Origin: a virus
Reading direction: 5' to 3' (one strand)
Virus record (IMG/VR): IMGVR_UViG_3300042198_000097
Location: 1 to 26,905 of that record
Length of the DNA stretch: 26,905 nucleotides
The number at the start of each line of letters is the position of its first letter. The stretch's first letter is position 1. Positions 5,070 through 22,491 of this stretch are shown here, piece by piece. Below the pieces are notes generated by a model that worked only from the letters and a program-made list of their open reading frames with translations, made no database searches and was not told the DNA's origin. The position numbers and the translations under genes are program-made.

Positions 5070-7148
5070 TTAACCAAAACCCCACTCATTTAGAGCGGAA
5101 TAACCACGACTTTCCAGCATAGATTTCATCTGCTCAAAACATTCGGCGTAAGGCTTGTAACGGTCATGGTGTTTACCTCCGGACTTGACACCCCATAGGA
5201 GTTGAATTGCGCTTTCTTTGCCCATGTTTTTGTACAAAATATATCGCAACAGGTGAAGCTTCTCTTCTACGCTAAGCCCGTGTTCCGTATCGCATAGAGG
5301 CTTCACCTGGTCGTCAAACAATCTGGAGCCGAGAAGTTTCACCAAAAAGTTAGAGCGTTCCACCGTAATCTCTATACTACTTGGGCTATTTACTGTGCTT
5401 ACGTTTTGGTCTTTAGGCGGTTCTAGGATATCTAGTTTATCTGGTTCAGGCGAGGCTTCACCAAAACCTTCTCCCATTTGCCCGTATTTTGGGCTAGGGT
5501 TCACCGCAGGATTAGGTGAAGCCTGATTTGTTATTACCTTCTTTTCTGGCTTTCCTAATAGTTGATAAACGTCTTCTACCCAAAGTCCTTGTAGTCGCTG
5601 GTCTGTTCCAGTGCAACTATAATACAAGTCGCCTTTACCAAGTAGAGAATGGCTCGGACAATCATTACCAATTATGATTTTACCATCTTGGAATGATTTA
5701 GTCTTTAACGCCACTCTTACAGGACAGTTAGAACGTATAAGCGGAGATACCACACTAGCATCTGGTCTCTGTGTTCCTAAAATGAAGTGTAAACCAGCAC
5801 CACGACCTTGGGCTAAGAGTTGACGTAGTTGGGCGGTAAAGTCTGAGCTATATTCGTCATCCATGAAAGCAGCAAACTCGTCAAAAAATACGACTACTCT
5901 ACAAAGTTTTTGGACAGATGGCAGTTTATTATATGCGTTAATATCCATAACTTCATGTTTTTTAAGTAGGCTATAACGACGACGCATCTCTGCATTAAGA
6001 ACGGTAAGTTGTTCTAGTGCTTCCTCTTGGGAATCTATAATTCTAACGTGTGGATAGTTTTGAAATTTAGCAAACCCAACTTGTTTTGGGTCTATTAAAT
6101 AGATCTGGCACATTGCCGGGCTAAACCTGGCAATAAGACTGCTTATGGCTGCTACCATCCACTCGGTTTTTCCAGAACCTGTTATGCCACCTACTAATAC
6201 GTGTGGCGAATCTGCATTAGCTAACGACGCTTGTACTAACTGATTGTTAATGTTTACTCCAATTGGAATGGTAAACGCTTCAACATTCTTGTTTAAGTAA
6301 TTAGCGTATTGATAGTAGGGACAAAATTCTCTATCTTGACGTGGGAAGTCAATAGCCACACCACCCGCTTGTGCAGTAATGAAAGGCTCAGAATCAAGTC
6401 CACAATGTATCTGCAAATCTGCACCTAACTTCTTGAATTTATCAAAACCTACGCCCATAGGAGGTTTAACTTTAACTCTAAGAAACGCAGGTGCTTTGAT
6501 AGTTTCTACTATTTCTGCACCACGTATTCCCGCACGAGATAAGGTTTTAAGTAAGTCTTGGGATAGGTCTTGGGTATCTTGTGAGTTACCTAAGTCATTT
6601 AGTAAGTTAATACCAGATTTAGTAAAATCATCTAACTCGTTTAACTGGTCTTCTGATTCGTCATAGCTAAAATATCTGGGCGCTTGACTGTTACTAGAAC
6701 CATCAAAATCATTACTATAACCATTTGCTTCAATACCGGATAGAACTGGTACAGGCTTTTTAGCTGCAAACGGTTGCAAGATTCTGTTAAATGAGAATGG
6801 TTTTTGCTGCTTCTGTTGTAATTGTTGTAGTTTTTGTTGTCTTTCCAGTCTTTTTCTTTGCTGCTCATTTTGAATGTCCTCCTCTGCTTGTGTCTTAAAT
6901 AGGTCTATACTTGCATTATGATATGCAGTTTTGTAGTTATCCTCTTCTATGGCTAACAACTCTGCTTCCCACGCATTTTCCCTGGTCTTATTGTTTAGTA
7001 TTAACGCGTAACATAAAGACATTAAACTAGTTATTGTCCTGACTTCTTTAAACCGTTGCCAAGGTAAGGTAGCAGGTATTAATGTCATTAAAGTTATTAG
7101 TGCTAAATGTGGTAGAACTGGCGTTTGTGTGTTAAATTGTCTTTTCAC
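5070..7148 (-). CDS. FtsK/SpoIIIE-type membrane-anchored DNA translocase
   Basis: The protein has 692 residues. Two hydrophobic stretches near the N-terminus (about 12-29 and 38-51) suggest a membrane hairpin. A Q/K-rich coiled coil follows (90-118), then a disordered linker to 200 and the FtsK beta domain. The motor core has Walker A GGITGSGKT (320-328), LIDPKQ (351-356), Walker B VVVFFDEF (418-425), and QGRGAGLHFILGTQRPDA. These are the signature positions of FtsK/SpoIIIE ATPases, which pump double-stranded DNA. There is no recognisable gamma domain at the C-terminus; instead a charged helical tail (about 600-692) is specific to this protein. It is the last gene of an operon of small membrane proteins, which should be its partners. 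Phage or plasmid DNA transfer, segregation and packaging are all possible roles. Confidence 0.85.
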   Translation of the reverse strand: MKRQFNTQTPVLPHLALITLMTLIPATLPWQRFKEVRTITSLMSLCYALILNNKTRENAWEAELLAIEEDNYKTAYHNASIDLFKTQAEEDIQNEQQRKRLERQQKLQQLQQKQQKPFSFNRILQPFAAKKPVPVLSGIEANGYSNDFDGSSNSQAPRYFSYDESEDQLNELDDFTKSGINLLNDLGNSQDTQDLSQDLLKTLSRAGIRGAEIVETIKAPAFLRVKVKPPMGVGFDKFKKLGADLQIHCGLDSEPFITAQAGGVAIDFPRQDREFCPYYQYANYLNKNVEAFTIPIGVNINNQLVQASLANADSPHVLVGGITGSGKTEWMVAAISSLIARFSPAMCQIYLIDPKQVGFAKFQNYPHVRIIDSQEEALEQLTVLNAEMRRRYSLLKKHEVMDINAYNKLPSVQKLCRVVVFFDEFAAFMDDEYSSDFTAQLRQLLAQGRGAGLHFILGTQRPDASVVSPLIRSNCPVRVALKTKSFQDGKIIIGNDCPSHSLLGKGDLYYSCTGTDQRLQGLWVEDVYQLLGKPEKKVITNQASPNPAVNPSPKYGQMGEGFGEASPEPDKLDILEPPKDQNVSTVNSPSSIEITVERSNFLVKLLGSRLFDDQVKPLCDTEHGLSVEEKLHLLRYILYKNMGKESAIQLLWGVKSGGKHHDRYKPYAECFEQMKSMLESRGYSALNEWGFG

Positions 7149-7174: not shown

Positions 7175-7423
7175 CTAATTAACCCAACCTAAAATAAAAC
7201 CTGCGCCAAAGCCTAATCCAACGATTGTGAAAAATTTTCTTGTGCCAGGAAACAAAATACTAAACACCACCGCAAACGCTACAATAGTTCCTAGAACTTG
7301 TAGTATATTGGGATACCATCGGCTTAAATATCCTGTTACTGCGCCACAACCTACTAAAATTAACCCTTGATTTATCACTGAACCTGCTTTAGCGGACTGT
7401 ACTAATGGTGATTCGTCGCTCAT
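7175..7423 (-). CDS. Small membrane protein of the FtsK operon
   Basis: An 82-residue protein dominated by hydrophobic segments: about 15-33 (INQGLILVGCGAVTGYLSR), 39-57 (ILQVLGTIVAFAVVFSILF) and 63-81 (FFTIVGLGFGAGFILGWV). It is therefore probably a three-pass inner-membrane protein. I do not recognise the family. The start overlaps the end of the upstream gene by four bases (ATGA), which implies translational coupling, and the FtsK gene follows 26 bp later. Confidence 0.65.
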   Translation of the reverse strand: MSDESPLVQSAKAGSVINQGLILVGCGAVTGYLSRWYPNILQVLGTIVAFAVVFSILFPGTRKFFTIVGLGFGAGFILGWVN

Positions 7424-7836
7424 ACAAAACCTCCTAAAATATGTCTGGGTGAACTACCTGAAATTGCCTTCTTGCCAACACCTCTGTAACTGGACGGTAG
7501 TGCTTTAAACTCACGTCTTTTAGGTATTAACTTTTCGTTGGTACGGTGCATCTGCATTGCCAAATCTATGGTTTTCCCTTCTAATTGGGCATTTGATTCA
7601 TAGATGGTTCTAACTGCGTTTACTTTCATTTGTCCAGCTTGACAATATGCTTGAACTCTTTCTGCACGTTCTGTAAGTTCCTCGGCTTCTTTGACCATCT
7701 GGTCTAGCTGGTCTTCCGAAACATCCATGGTGTACTTATAGATTGGCTTGTGGTTCTGTTGCACTAAATCCAGTAGCTGTGTACTGCTTTTGGATACGTT
7801 GGCATTTAACTTGCCAAAAAACGCAAATATACTCAC
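7420..7836 (-). CDS. Coiled-coil protein of the FtsK operon
   Basis: A 138-residue soluble protein, not recognised. Residues 40-100 form a long helix with heptad character (DQLDQMVKEAEELTERAERVQAY..., ESNAQLEGKTIDLAMQMHR), which suggests oligomerisation or a structural scaffold. The C-terminus is basic and glycine-rich (SSYRGVGKKAISGSSPRH). It overlaps the genes on both sides by four bases, so it is tightly coupled to two membrane proteins. Confidence 0.6.
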   Translation of the reverse strand: MSIFAFFGKLNANVSKSSTQLLDLVQQNHKPIYKYTMDVSEDQLDQMVKEAEELTERAERVQAYCQAGQMKVNAVRTIYESNAQLEGKTIDLAMQMHRTNEKLIPKRREFKALPSSYRGVGKKAISGSSPRHILGGFV

Positions 7837-8078
7837 TTTTTGACGTTCCTAATTACGCATGTTTGTTCTGTATTTCCAGCATCGGTAAAACCTGTTACAA
7901 CGTTGCCTATGATTGTTGTAGTGGTTGTAATTGCCCATGCTATACCAGCAACTGTTAACCCAGAAACTAGTATGGTTGGCACTTGACTGGGTTCGTAGTG
8001 ACGCTCTATATGCGTTTCAGTGTCTTCATATTTTTGTATTGACACTTCTTTGACTAACCTTAATTTTTTGGTATCCAT
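7833..8078 (-). CDS. Single-pass membrane protein of the FtsK operon
   Basis: An 81-residue protein with a charged N-terminal half (KKLRLVKEVSIQKYEDTETHIERHYE) and one hydrophobic helix at about 34-62 (TILVSGLTVAGIAWAI..., then IIGNVVTGF). A short tail with one Cys follows. The family is not recognised. The ATG has AAGGAG nearby (gAGTAATT precedes, AAGGAGTAATT at about 8083-8093), a good ribosome site. It overlaps the next gene by four bases. Confidence 0.6.
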   Translation of the reverse strand: MDTKKLRLVKEVSIQKYEDTETHIERHYEPSQVPTILVSGLTVAGIAWAITTTTTIIGNVVTGFTDAGNTEQTCVIRNVKK

Positions 8079-8129: not shown

Positions 8130-8558
8130 TTATCGGTTCTTAGCTAGTTCGTCTAAGAACGTTACTGCACCCCATAAAAATGCAACTGCACCTATGGCAA
8201 TTGGTATAACTGGAAGTGCTACACTAACCGCAGCACCTGCATAACCTACTGTGGCTGCAATACCAGTGATAGATCCAACTCCTAAAATGTTTTCGATTAG
8301 CATACGCACCTTTTTGTTTTGTAATAACTGTTGAAAGATTCTGATTTCAGTAGCTGTCTGTGCCATTTCTATTTGAGATTCTTGGATTGCAGACAGCTTT
8401 ATCAATTGTTCCCGGATATCACTGGCTTGGAGTAATTGAGACAACTCCTGTGCCAGTTCTGGTGTTAAGTTTAACTCGTCTAAAGCTGCTTCAATTACTT
8501 GTAATCTGGTAGCATTGACTTGAGTTGTTCTAACAGTTGATTCCGGGTTTGAGTCAAC
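8130..8558 (-). CDS. Frame -1 extension carrying two membrane helices
   Basis: This frame is open from the slippery site at 8558-8564 to the stop at 8130. It encodes 142 residues: a helical part (VNATRLQVIEAALDELNL, TPELAQELSQLLQ), a helix with IEMAQTATEIRIFQQLLQ, and two hydrophobic helices (ILGVGSITGIAATVGYAGAAVSVA, VIPIAIGAVAFLWGAVTF). No ATG, GTG or TTG lies in its first 38 codons. The only candidate, TTG 8444, is inside the helical region and lacks good context apart from GGAG directly adjacent. I therefore read it as the -1 frameshift extension of the upstream gene, giving a 338-residue fusion. Separate translation from TTG 8444 (104 residues) remains the alternative. Confidence 0.55.
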   Translation of the reverse strand, partial: VDSNPESTVRTTQVNATRLQVIEAALDELNLTPELAQELSQLLQASDIREQLIKLSAIQESQIEMAQTATEIRIFQQLLQNKKVRMLIENILGVGSITGIAATVGYAGAAVSVALPVIPIAIGAVAFLWGAVTFLDELAKNR

Positions 8559-9145
8559 TTTTTTTGCTTAGCATACACTTCGGTTAGGTTAGATTGAATA
8601 CTCTTAGAAGTGTTACCTAGGTTTTGGTGTAGCGTTCCAATTTGTTCTGTTAACGCTTGTTGCTTGGCTGACAAAAAAGAATCGTATACCGTACTTTGTC
8701 CTTTGGTGTACGCTTCTAAGGACGATAAAGCAGCATTAACACCGGTTACACCAGCAGTTATGGTGTCAGCTACCGCCATGGTATTTAAAGTTTCCGTAGC
8801 AATAGTGTTTTGGATTGCCAAGATATTGGTAGTGTTAGCTTCAACTTGCTGTCCAGTAGTTAACTCACCTCCTGCAACTTGATGTGTTTCAGGTATTTCT
8901 TGCGCAACTTGTGTGTTGTGTGCTATATCTGCCCAGTTATCTTCTGACTCTTGCGCTTTAGACTGTTTTGCTAAAGCGGTTAACTTTTGTCCTAGTACGC
9001 TATCAGGTGCTATGTTAGGCAACAAAGAATCTACCTTAATCTGCATTTCTGGATATTGTTGTTTAATCTCGCGTAGGAGGTCAAAAGGAGCCATGCCAAT
9101 AGCGTTAGCAAATTCTTTGATAGTTGTGTTGTTAGTTGAGTTCAT
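8495..9145 (-). CDS. IF2N-like/coiled-coil protein with terminal slippery site
   Basis: The zero-frame product has 216 residues. The N-terminus (TIKEFANAIGMAPFDLLREIKQ..., KVDSLLPNI) resembles the small helical IF2-N type domain. The middle is Ala/Thr-rich, and the C-terminal part is coiled coil (SAKQQALTEQIGTLHQNLGNTSKSIQ...). No function is recognised. Codons 194-196 read CAA AAA AAG, so the canonical A AAA AAG slippery heptamer falls 20 codons before the stop. The -1 frame opens immediately before it, after a TAA, and continues for 142 codons into membrane helices. The likely outcome is a soluble short form and a membrane-anchored long form. It overlaps the upstream gene by 14 bp. Confidence 0.65.
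   Translation of the reverse strand: MNSTNNTTIKEFANAIGMAPFDLLREIKQQYPEMQIKVDSLLPNIAPDSVLGQKLTALAKQSKAQESEDNWADIAHNTQVAQEIPETHQVAGGELTTGQQVEANTTNILAIQNTIATETLNTMAVADTITAGVTGVNAALSSLEAYTKGQSTVYDSFLSAKQQALTEQIGTLHQNLGNTSKSIQSNLTEVYAKQKKLTQTRNQLLEQLKSMLPDYK
8558..8564 (-). promoter_or_regulatory. dnaX-type -1 frameshift heptamer
   Basis: On the minus strand the sequence is a run of seven A then G. In the reading frame of the 8495-9145 gene it parses as A AAA AAG, the heptamer used for -1 frameshifting in E. coli dnaX. The -1 frame is closed by TAA just upstream (TAA GCA AAA AAA GTT) and open for 142 codons downstream. A possible stimulatory stem is GTTGACT directly after the heptamer with AGTCAAT about 35 bases on. 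Confidence 0.6.
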
Positions 9146-9509
9146 AATTACCTCGTAAGATTTGGTCGTTTAAAATTTGCAATTTTTCTTGAATAATTTG
9201 AGCCTTGTTCTTAGTCCGACGATATCTATTAGTTAACTCTTGGATAGTTCTAAGTAGTTCTAAATGTTGTTCATTTTCAAGTGGTCTACCGTTCAAAGAA
9301 CCAGTGTTTGGGTCTACATAGATTTTTAGCGGGTCTAAGAAAGTTGCGCCGGTCAACAATAGGGTTTGTACTGAGCGTACTGTGTTATAGCCTAGTAAAC
9401 GGGCAACTTCTGTGCGGGTCATGTCCGGTAGTAAAGTATGGACTTTACTGGGTTTGGACTGGTGTTTTCTCCCGACTATTTTTGTTGGGTAAAACGTTAT
9501 CTCTGACAT
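9132..9509 (-). CDS. Helix-turn-helix protein, first gene of the FtsK operon
   Basis: A 125-residue protein. Residues 29-50 (MTRTEVARLLGYNTVRSVQTLL) form a helix-turn-helix of the MerR/excisionase or RHH-free type that reads as DNA-binding. The following GRPLENEQHLELLRTIQELTNRYRRTKNKAQIIQEKLQILN is a long helix suited to dimerisation. It is basic overall at the N-terminus (KIVGRKHQSKPSK). Its position at the head of the operon suggests it either regulates the operon or marks the DNA on which the FtsK motor acts. No exact family is assigned. Its promoter is not obvious in 9510-9600. Confidence 0.6.
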   Translation of the reverse strand: MSEITFYPTKIVGRKHQSKPSKVHTLLPDMTRTEVARLLGYNTVRSVQTLLLTGATFLDPLKIYVDPNTGSLNGRPLENEQHLELLRTIQELTNRYRRTKNKAQIIQEKLQILNDQILRGNYELN

Positions 9510-17165: not shown

Positions 17166-17753
17166 CTACCTAACAATATTGGAGTCTAATTTAACAGATA
17201 TTGGTACTATACCAACCATCATTATACCATACACTACTGGCACACGCCCACCTTCTCCAGCATTTTCTAATGGACTAAAACTATTAGACTGCTTTTCTTC
17301 TTTGTCTGGCTCTTTTTTAGGCTGAAAAATTGATAAAATACCACTTAATAACAAATAGCTACCTACTGTCGCAAGTTGTGACGCAGTAAATAGTGTATTA
17401 CCTAATTTAATTCCTATCGCTGGTAAAACAAAGGCAGCAGCAATGAGACCTACACCAGCTAATATTTGCCACCACTGAGTACCCTCTCCACCTGCACCCA
17501 TAAATATTGGCACAATTCTAATAGATTTAACTTTTTTAGCTATTGGGCAAATTAACTCTGGTTCTCCCACTTGCTGATGTCCGACGTATACTTTATAATA
17601 TACACCACGACTACTAGATTTTTGTAAGTAATCAAAGAACCCGTCGAAGTTAGCCTTTAATGCGCGTATAGCCTCTCCTACAGTAGATACAGCTAAGTCA
17701 ATAGTATCTATAAATAAATCTGCTAATTCACCTTCTAGCCTAATTGTCATCAT
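17166..17753 (-). CDS. Tail assembly protein I
   Basis: The protein has 195 residues, close to lambda gpI (223). It starts MTIRLEGELADLF with a ubiquitin-like strand-helix (VSTVGEAIRALKANF), then PIAKKVKSIRIVPIFMGAGG. A hydrophobic central segment follows (WWQILAGVGLIAAAFVLPAIGIKLGNTLF), as in I proteins, with a C-terminal GEGGRVPVVYGIMMVGIVPISVKLDS. It is needed for tail tip assembly and is not retained in the mature virion in lambda. AAAGGA lies seven bases before the ATG. The start codon is only two bases from the start of the divergent M-like gene, so its promoter must lie within that gene. Confidence 0.85.
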   Translation of the reverse strand: MMTIRLEGELADLFIDTIDLAVSTVGEAIRALKANFDGFFDYLQKSSSRGVYYKVYVGHQQVGEPELICPIAKKVKSIRIVPIFMGAGGEGTQWWQILAGVGLIAAAFVLPAIGIKLGNTLFTASQLATVGSYLLLSGILSIFQPKKEPDKEEKQSNSFSPLENAGEGGRVPVVYGIMMVGIVPISVKLDSNIVR

Positions 17754-17755
17754 AT

Positions 17756-18121
17756 ATGGTTTTTCCTTTAATTCCGCTTATACCTAATTGGGATAATTCT
17801 ATCACAGAAGTTCCTGCATTAAATATATCCAAGTTTGGAGATAATGGTGTAGAGGGTCGCTCTAGTAAGTATACCATAAATCCTACCACATCTTCTTGGA
17901 GTATATCAGTTAATCTACCCAATAACAAAGCGTTAGCAGTAGATGCTTTTTTAAAAGAAAGAAATGGCAGAGCATTTAGATTGTCGTTAGACAGTTTGGA
18001 TGGCACTACAGATGATGGTAATTTATATGCGTGCAGCGAATGGTCTGTACAAATACTAAATGATACTACTTCTGGATTTACAGCAACTTTTGAGCAGGTT
18101 AGGAGATTTTTGGATATTTAA
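17756..18121 (+). CDS. Minor tail protein M-like, on the opposite strand
   Basis: From ATG 17756 the protein has 121 residues (lambda gpM has 109). It shows the family pattern: a leading FPLIPLIPNWDN, then ISKFGDNGVEGRS, YTINPTTSSWSISVNLPNNKALAVDAFLKERNGRAFRLS, YACSEWSVQIL and ATFEQVRRF. The TTG at 17744 is an alternative start, but neither start has a Shine-Dalgarno sequence. In lambda-like phages M sits between tape measure and L on the same strand. Here it stands alone, divergent from gene I and convergent with the helicase three bases away. The minus-strand ORF lying over it is a shadow. Confidence 0.75.
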   Translation: MVFPLIPLIPNWDNSITEVPALNISKFGDNGVEGRSSKYTINPTTSSWSISVNLPNNKALAVDAFLKERNGRAFRLSLDSLDGTTDDGNLYACSEWSVQILNDTTSGFTATFEQVRRFLDI

Positions 18122-21311: not shown

Positions 21312-21321
21312 ATCTCCGGTT
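21297..21321 (-). terminator. Terminator of the proximal tail operon
   Basis: AACCGG (21302-21307) pairs with CCGGTT (21316-21321). On the minus strand the stem is followed by seven T. It overlaps the end of the T frame and implies that no tape-measure gene is co-transcribed beyond this point. Confidence 0.75.
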
Positions 21322-21727
21322 AAGCATCTAATAGCATTGCTAAAGAGGTTAGTGTAGCGGTAGGTAGCTCTCGTTTACGTATAGCCTCTTTAATTATTTG
21401 TTTAGTTTTCTCACTTAACTTACTTCTAGAAGTTGTATTAACTTTATCAGGATAAGGTAGTAATTCCGCAAAGTTAATAGCTGGGTCATCTTTCCCTTTA
21501 AATCCATTAAATAAACCAGCCCACCCAATAGCGTGTATACGGGCTTCTGTATTGGCTTTTTCCATATAGATAGATTCCATTTCGGTTATACATTGGAACA
21601 CTATGTAGTCTGGTTGTTGCAAGAAAGTATCCCAATCTTTAAAACGTCTATCTTGTATTCTGTAGGATTGTATACGCCAATACAGCTTATCCCAATCTAT
21701 TTCGCCGCTGGTAGACTCAATTCCTCC
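21320..21727 (-). CDS. Tail chaperone T-like extension, reached by -1 frameshift
   Basis: This frame is open from a TAA in the G-like gene to a stop at 21320 and encodes 135 residues when joined. It begins in the frame as GGIESTSGEIDWDKLYWRIQ and continues with RRFKDWDTFLQQPDYIVFQ. No ATG, GTG or TTG lies within the overlap; the first TTG is 35 codons in (21622). IDWDKLYWRI...DFK/FKDW resembles the T parts of tail assembly chaperones. The arrangement - overlap of 31 bases with the G-like gene, and a run GAGGGGGAGG at the frame change - fits production of a G-T fusion of 390 residues. Slippage at GGGGG is inferred, not a textbook heptamer. Confidence 0.6.
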   Translation of the reverse strand, partial: GGIESTSGEIDWDKLYWRIQSYRIQDRRFKDWDTFLQQPDYIVFQCITEMESIYMEKANTEARIHAIGWAGLFNGFKGKDDPAINFAELLPYPDKVNTTSRSKLSEKTKQIIKEAIRKRELPTATLTSLAMLLDA

Positions 21728-22491
21728 CCCTCGGCGTTAGAATTGTCTTCTACAACTGGTAATTCCTGCCAACGACTGGACTCATTGCGGTAGAACTCAT
21801 AGATTTTCTCTACTAGTGCTTCGCTTAGTTTATACGTGTCTTCTAAAGTCCATTCTGGATAACCAAGTAGGTAAGATTTATTAGTACCCAAAAATCCAAC
21901 TGCACCAATCTCTAAAGTGCCTCCAGCGGGCGCTATTCTAATGGTTTCTGTATCGGGAGGGTAATTGCCATCTACTACTAGTTTTGTGTGTCCAAATCGG
22001 ATTACTTGACGAGAATTAAGCACTGGTTCGGATGGTTCAATGACTGCTTTCTTATCATTAATTACAACTTTATCTGCTAATACAATAGGATAAGCTGCTC
22101 TAGTTTGTATCAAAGCGGTAGTAGCAGCTGCGCCAATTTCGTTTTCAGAATAGCCAGATAGTAGATTTAGCTCGGTAAACGAATCTGCGTACTGTAGTAG
22201 TAAATCACCATTGTCTACTTCCGTACTACCAGCTGTTCTAGGAGATAAGATTCTGGTAACTTCGTCAATCGTTAAACCCTTTTCTTGAGCAATTCTTTGA
22301 ATGAGTTTAGTAGCAATACCTTGTGCTTGTGCGCGTGATTTTTCTGCTTCAAAAGTAAACTTACGTTCAATTACTTTAATATGTCCATATTTAGCTAAAT
22401 ATAAGCCTTCTACTGGATTGCCATCATTGTCAGATACGCCAACCCATACGATTTCAGGTAACTTTTTACCAATAACAAGATTAAAATTCAT
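21697..22491 (-). CDS. Tail assembly chaperone G-like
   Basis: The protein has 264 residues. It starts MNFNLVIGKKLPEIVWVGVSDNDGNPVEGLYLAKYGHIKVIERKF and has a long middle region with ATKLIQRIAQEKGLTIDEVTRILSP. It lies immediately after the major tail proteins, the usual position of gpG. The stop at 21697 overlaps the T-like frame; codons 254-256 are GAG GGG GAG. It is longer than lambda gpG (140), so extra domains may have been added: the middle (SEPVLNSRQVIRFGHTKLVVDGNYPPDTETIRIAPAGG) is beta-like. It overlaps the upstream 78-residue gene by four bases. The role is to bind tape measure protein during assembly. Confidence 0.65.
   Translation of the reverse strand: MNFNLVIGKKLPEIVWVGVSDNDGNPVEGLYLAKYGHIKVIERKFTFEAEKSRAQAQGIATKLIQRIAQEKGLTIDEVTRILSPRTAGSTEVDNGDLLLQYADSFTELNLLSGYSENEIGAAATTALIQTRAAYPIVLADKVVINDKKAVIEPSEPVLNSRQVIRFGHTKLVVDGNYPPDTETIRIAPAGGTLEIGAVGFLGTNKSYLLGYPEWTLEDTYKLSEALVEKIYEFYRNESSRWQELPVVEDNSNAEGEELSLPAAK

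Follow-up and report, generated by a model that had tools for sequence, protein, structure and literature searches.

How is a coding frame translated when it opens inside another gene and offers no conventional start codon for 38 codons? This question is raised by two overlapping reading frames, ORF A and ORF B, in a stretch of 26,905 nucleotides taken from IMG/VR virus record IMGVR_UViG_3300042198_000097 (hereafter the window, meaning the whole stretch). Since the FtsK protein encoded in the window is 99.9% identical to that of phage Cr-LKS4 (OQ625504) and 96.0% identical to that of CrV-01T (MH636380), we assigned the window to a fragment of a siphophage of the bloom-forming cyanobacterium Cylindrospermopsis (Raphidiopsis) raciborskii. 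A C. raciborskii strain, named KLL07 in the GenBank record, served for both the isolation and the propagation of Cr-LKS4, according to the available text of its description (PMC10811720). In the stretches of the phage that were scanned, no tRNA gene was found. A gene resembling that for minor tail protein M (positions 17744-18121, plus strand; gp036 in CrV-01T) is oriented against the tail genes around it, and in MH636380 many small genes from 79 kb to the end recur in reverse order, an arrangement that looks like a long inverted repeat.

The two frames belong to an operon on the minus strand with the order p125 - A - B - p81 - p138 - p82 - ftsK. Its first gene encodes a 125-residue protein without a significant family match (p125; 9132-9509) and is followed by ORF A (216 residues; 8495-9145), which starts with ATG behind a GAGG Shine-Dalgarno motif and corresponds to gp048 in CrV-01T and g50 in Cr-LKS4. 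Downstream of ORF B lie p81 (81 residues; 7833-8078), with one predicted membrane segment, p138 (138 residues; 7420-7836), soluble and probably coiled-coil, and p82 (82 residues; 7175-7423), with two predicted membrane segments. The last gene encodes an FtsK/SpoIIIE-type DNA translocase of 692 residues (5070-7148; PF01580, E = 1.2e-23; phrog_1358, E = 9.1e-68) with one N-terminal hydrophobic segment. The placement of the A/B pair in an operon with FtsK, proposed from the sequence alone, was confirmed, and the gene order from p125 to ftsK is identical in all seven loci compared, with two contigs ending early (L006 before ftsK and L007 inside it).

Codons 194-196 of ORF A read CAA AAA AAG (Gln-Lys-Lys) and contain the slippery heptamer A_AAA_AAG in phase, at codons 195-196 (8564-8558, minus strand). 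The -1 frame opens directly after a TAA located just upstream of the heptamer and runs to position 8130; counted from this TAA, ORF B comprises 145 codons (8130-8567, minus strand). Its first ATG, GTG, or TTG is a TTG at 8444, 38 codons past the shift. A ribosome slipping at the heptamer would retain residues 1-196 of A and exchange the last 20 residues of A for 142 residues of the -1 frame, giving a predicted fusion of 338 residues with Lys-Lys-Val-Asp-Ser at the junction. The phase of the heptamer, the opening of the -1 frame after TAA without a conventional start for 38 codons, and the length of the fusion are therefore all as the sequence-only reading had described them.

That reading had suggested examining the heptamer and the overlap in homologues, and we compared the window with eight other records, namely the two isolates CrV-01T and Cr-LKS4 and six IMG/VR contigs. 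The string CAAAAAAAGTTG is present exactly once in each of the eight, and both the heptamer and the overlap are kept in every one of them. By identity of ORF A, the records form about three lineages: the window with CrV-01T, Cr-LKS4, and contig L002 (94-100%), contig L003 (81%), and the near-identical contigs L004-L007 (75%); the most distant relatives share 75% identity in A and 73% in B. The distance from the heptamer to the ORF A stop, i.e. the dual-frame overlap (8498-8557 in the window, minus strand), is 60 nt in all six sequences measured, and the stop is held at the same place, either as TAA or as TAG. The family is narrow, so that the conservation of the heptamer and the overlap is partly due to shared descent.

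Homopolymer runs are prone to errors in sequencing and assembly, and such an error in the A run, or a frameshift mutation that arose there recently, could have split a single ORF in two. This explanation is already contradicted by the conservation across records: the same run and both frames occur in the genomes of two isolates and, counting the window, in seven metagenome contigs, the ORF A stop stays in position as TAA or TAG, and none of the records compared carries a fused A+B ORF. We regard it as extremely improbable.

A second possibility is that B is a separate protein, initiated internally at the TTG, at a CTG four codons earlier or at lineage-specific starts, or made by ribosomes that terminate ORF A and then reinitiate, with the heptamer being a coincidence of the Gln-Lys-Lys sequence. 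Indeed, both isolate records in GenBank list B as an independent protein of 104 residues that begins at the TTG equivalent to 8444 (8130-8444 in the window, minus strand; gp049 in CrV-01T, g51 in Cr-LKS4). This start is not conserved, however, since TTA replaces TTG in L003, where the first ATG, GTG, or TTG lies 63 codons past the shift and lacks a Shine-Dalgarno sequence. We scored Shine-Dalgarno sequences in three lineages (the window, L003, and L004). The TTG of B in the window scores only -1.5, its GGAG directly abutting the TTG, and the L004 lineage keeps the TTG with a score of -3.9, whereas Shine-Dalgarno sequences of -4.2 to -12.2 kcal/mol precede five of the six other operon genes (A, p81, p138, p82, and ftsK). 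Because p125 also lacks one, the missing Shine-Dalgarno sequence at B is weak evidence when taken alone. The CTG is conserved, which would suit internal initiation, but it too has no good Shine-Dalgarno sequence. The L004 lineage also has an ATG within B, at 49 codons past the shift, whose Shine-Dalgarno-like sequence is strong (-10.3); the other lineages lack this combination, which could yield an additional short B product in L004. No homologue combined a clear start codon for B with loss of the heptamer, the combination that would speak against frameshifting: the heptamer is kept in all eight other records, and the annotated start is not conserved.

The substitution patterns of the -1 frame also bear on internal initiation. 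In three divergent pairs, the segment from the ORF A stop to the first L003 start gave a pS of 0.41-0.64 vs a pN of 0.18-0.24, and codons 38-63 gave 0.39-0.68 and 0.10-0.18, respectively; the near pair, the window and L002, has too few changes for a reading of pN/pS. From the ORF A stop as far as the TTG, constraint is only weak, as in a linker (divergent pairs, pN/pS about 0.6-0.7). Length changes after the ORF A stop amount to 3 and 9 nt and keep the frame. Judged by these ratios, the -1 frame upstream of any L003 start is under purifying selection, and this constraint, like the frame-preserving gaps, argues against a B that is only made separately. Of the two frames in the overlap, the 0 frame is the better conserved, so both products appear to matter. 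Codon conservation is raised in this part of ORF A: among codons whose amino acid is conserved in the three lineages, 11 of 19 are invariant in the heptamer and overlap vs 38 of 127 upstream (Fisher p = 0.018), and pairwise synonymous tests of the overlap were not significant (p = 0.11-0.14).

The heptamer would arise by chance from codon usage with a probability of 12% given the peptide, a value that leaves room for a coincidence, and a -1 frame open throughout the overlap would arise with a probability of 4-12% per lineage. The case for frameshifting combines these estimates, and the counts in the window and in CrV-01T given below, with the lack of a conserved start and with the selection acting ahead of any start. 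Taking all of this into account, we consider a separate B unlikely.

Besides the conservation in all eight other records, two counts speak against a chance occurrence. No other pair of ORFs overlapping in the -1 frame carries a canonical X_XXY_YYZ site, either in the window or in 99,999 of the 104,363 bases of CrV-01T, within the ORF length limits of the script used. The CrV-01T genes checked for the heptamer (92 of the 124 annotated features of the record, 25,747 codons) contain two in-phase copies of A_AAA_AAG, namely this one and another within the tape-measure gene. The two copies compare with 5.8 expected from synonymous shuffling (30 of 500 shuffles were as low), and A_AAA_AAA is also under-represented; avoidance of A_AAA_AAG elsewhere in this genome is suggestive only.

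The same fusion would result from transcriptional slippage, if RNA polymerase added an A in the run of seven and the edited mRNA were then translated. The run CAAAAAAAG, with its seven A, is identical in all records, and an extra A would lead into the same frame. Against this, seven A are an automatic consequence of CAA AAA AAG, and the available text of a survey links transcriptional realignment to A runs exceeding seven and classes A_AAA_AAG among the ribosomal sites (PMC3711429). We therefore regard polymerase slippage as quite improbable here. Programmed -1 ribosomal frameshifting remains the best reading of the A/B pair, and we would give it a probability of about 80% on the sequence comparisons presented here.

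With regard to stimulatory elements, we found no Shine-Dalgarno stimulator upstream of the heptamer and, among pseudoknot-free folds, no downstream structure stabler than shuffled sequences across all lineages (z-scores from +1.3 to -2.8, inconsistent between them). None of 21 downstream base pairs showed compensatory changes, and no Rfam frameshift element matched above its gathering score. As no stimulator was found, a modest rate of slippage, with more A than fusion, would be expected.

The predicted structure of ORF A (mean pLDDT 68) consists of short N-terminal helices, a linker, and a long helix spanning residues 97-211, which we read as a probable coiled coil; the frameshift position is near the end of this helix. 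The model, which can be relied on for the coiled coil only, had no match in the PDB at an E-value of 0.001 or better. A weak coiled-coil match to the baseplate family phrog_2258 (E = 1.8e-4) was the sole hint of a virion protein. The IF2N-like domain that had been proposed for ORF A was not significant: IF2_N (PF04760) scored 11.6 bits (E = 0.24) vs a cut-off of 25.3. For ORF B, the model is unusable (mean pLDDT 38), and the hydropathy profile shows a single strong membrane segment (residues 113-131; mean 2.38, limit 1.6). It is preceded by a glycine-rich hydrophobic stretch that stays below the limit, and no other segment exceeds it; hence, of the two membrane helices initially suggested, one is clear and the second is marginal. 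Hydrophobic segments also occur in p81, p82, and FtsK.

The following mechanism can be proposed from these features. Most ribosomes would complete ORF A and make a soluble protein of 216 residues with a long coiled coil. A fraction would slip back one base at A_AAA_AAG, with tRNA-Lys re-pairing on AAA AAA, and would read on into ORF B, yielding the 338-residue protein that ends in a membrane anchor. This anchored minority could recruit soluble A through the coiled coil, close to FtsK, so that the element may serve to keep part of the coiled-coil protein membrane-bound next to the translocase of the operon. More tentatively, frameshifting could act as a dosage switch setting the membrane-bound fraction of a coiled-coil adaptor, with the anchored form and the small membrane proteins of the operon docking the phage FtsK at the host membrane or septum and thereby moving or positioning phage DNA in the filamentous cyanobacterium; we consider this extended role doubtful at present.

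The element appears to have a narrow distribution. In the phage collection, no homologue of ORF A or B was found beyond CrV-01T and Cr-LKS4. Plasmids yielded no homologue of ORF B, and genome contigs none of ORF B or p125. Scans of viral contigs recovered only the same six contigs, plus three with a more distant FtsK. Within the collections searched, A/B was thus found solely in these phages. Literature searches on cyanophage frameshifting, on cyanophage FtsK, and on frameshifting more broadly returned no title on the A/B element, judging by titles, and neither 'frameshift' nor 'FtsK' turned up when PMC7156551 and PMC10811720 were searched for these words.

Among known systems, the gene surroundings recall other FtsK/SpoIIIE operons of cyanobacterial phages and plasmids, in which small membrane proteins likewise precede FtsK. 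One virus contig (L034) encodes an FtsK 42% identical to that of the window, preceded by a similar run of small ORFs. This record yielded no ORF B homologue, and in its operon no plausible genes form a -1 pair with a heptamer in phase. The region at 3337-6978 of L034 includes a 200-residue protein with a C-terminal hydrophobic segment, possibly an analogue made without frameshifting.

With respect to the site, the closest known system is dnaX of E. coli, which has the same A_AAA_AAG heptamer and the same -1 direction. According to the available text of a review on recoding, this heptamer is very shift-prone in bacteria, far more so than related heptamers (PMC5009743). The shifted product of dnaX is the shorter one (PMC5009743, in part), and its stimulators are a Shine-Dalgarno-like element and a hairpin, as described in the available portions of PMC5009743 and PMC3711429. 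For A/B, by contrast, the predicted shifted product exceeds ORF A in length, and our searches revealed no stimulator. In addition, dnaX encodes a clamp-loader subunit of DNA polymerase III, whereas neither ORF A nor ORF B matched a Pfam family above its cut-off. The sequence-only reading, a dnaX-type frameshift creating a membrane-anchored isoform, thus probably holds in its core: the programmed -1 shift is favoured by the heptamer and overlap kept in all eight other records and by the unconserved annotated start. The dnaX comparison does not extend past the heptamer, given the missing Shine-Dalgarno element, the lack of a stable or covarying structure, and the longer shifted product, and the IF2N-like part is likewise dropped.

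In lambda-like phages, the -1 frameshift of G/GT serves tail assembly (PMC5009743, available text). A/B resembles this system in having a -1 shift near the end of the first ORF and a C-terminal domain supplied by an overlapping -1 ORF. G/GT, however, lies between the tail tube and tape-measure genes, whereas A/B lies in an FtsK operon distant from the tape measure (41-42 kb vs 57-70 kb in CrV-01T). The tape-measure gene itself (MH636380, 57277-70527) has 4,417 codons, which fits a very long tail. A better match to G/GT than A/B is a pair located behind the tail genes at 21320-22491 of the window (minus strand), in which an ORF at 22491-21697 ends inside a -1 ORF running to 21320. The overlap contains GAGGGGGAGGAA, which does not form a canonical heptamer, and the second part is annotated as a separate ORF, gp033, in the GenBank record of CrV-01T. 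With a candidate slip near 21732, this pair probably represents a second frameshift in the -1 direction, akin to that of lambda G/GT.

Frameshifted C-terminal extensions, often Ig-like, are described for virion proteins of other phages (the T7/T3 coat, A2, A118, and PSA; PMC5009743, available text). These resemble A/B in that one gene gives two products with different C termini, but they are capsid or tail proteins, whereas the extension in A/B is a predicted membrane anchor in an FtsK operon. More generally, the phage frameshift cases covered in the available text of that review affect virion proteins, tail-assembly proteins or, in one case, a repressor gene (PMC5009743). If our reading is correct, two isolate annotations should be corrected, as they give B a TTG start that a relative (L003) lacks, and a membrane anchor added by a conserved frameshift in an FtsK operon would extend phage recoding to protein localisation. 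The mechanism of A/B belongs to a known class, within which the addition of a membrane anchor in an FtsK operon is probably new.
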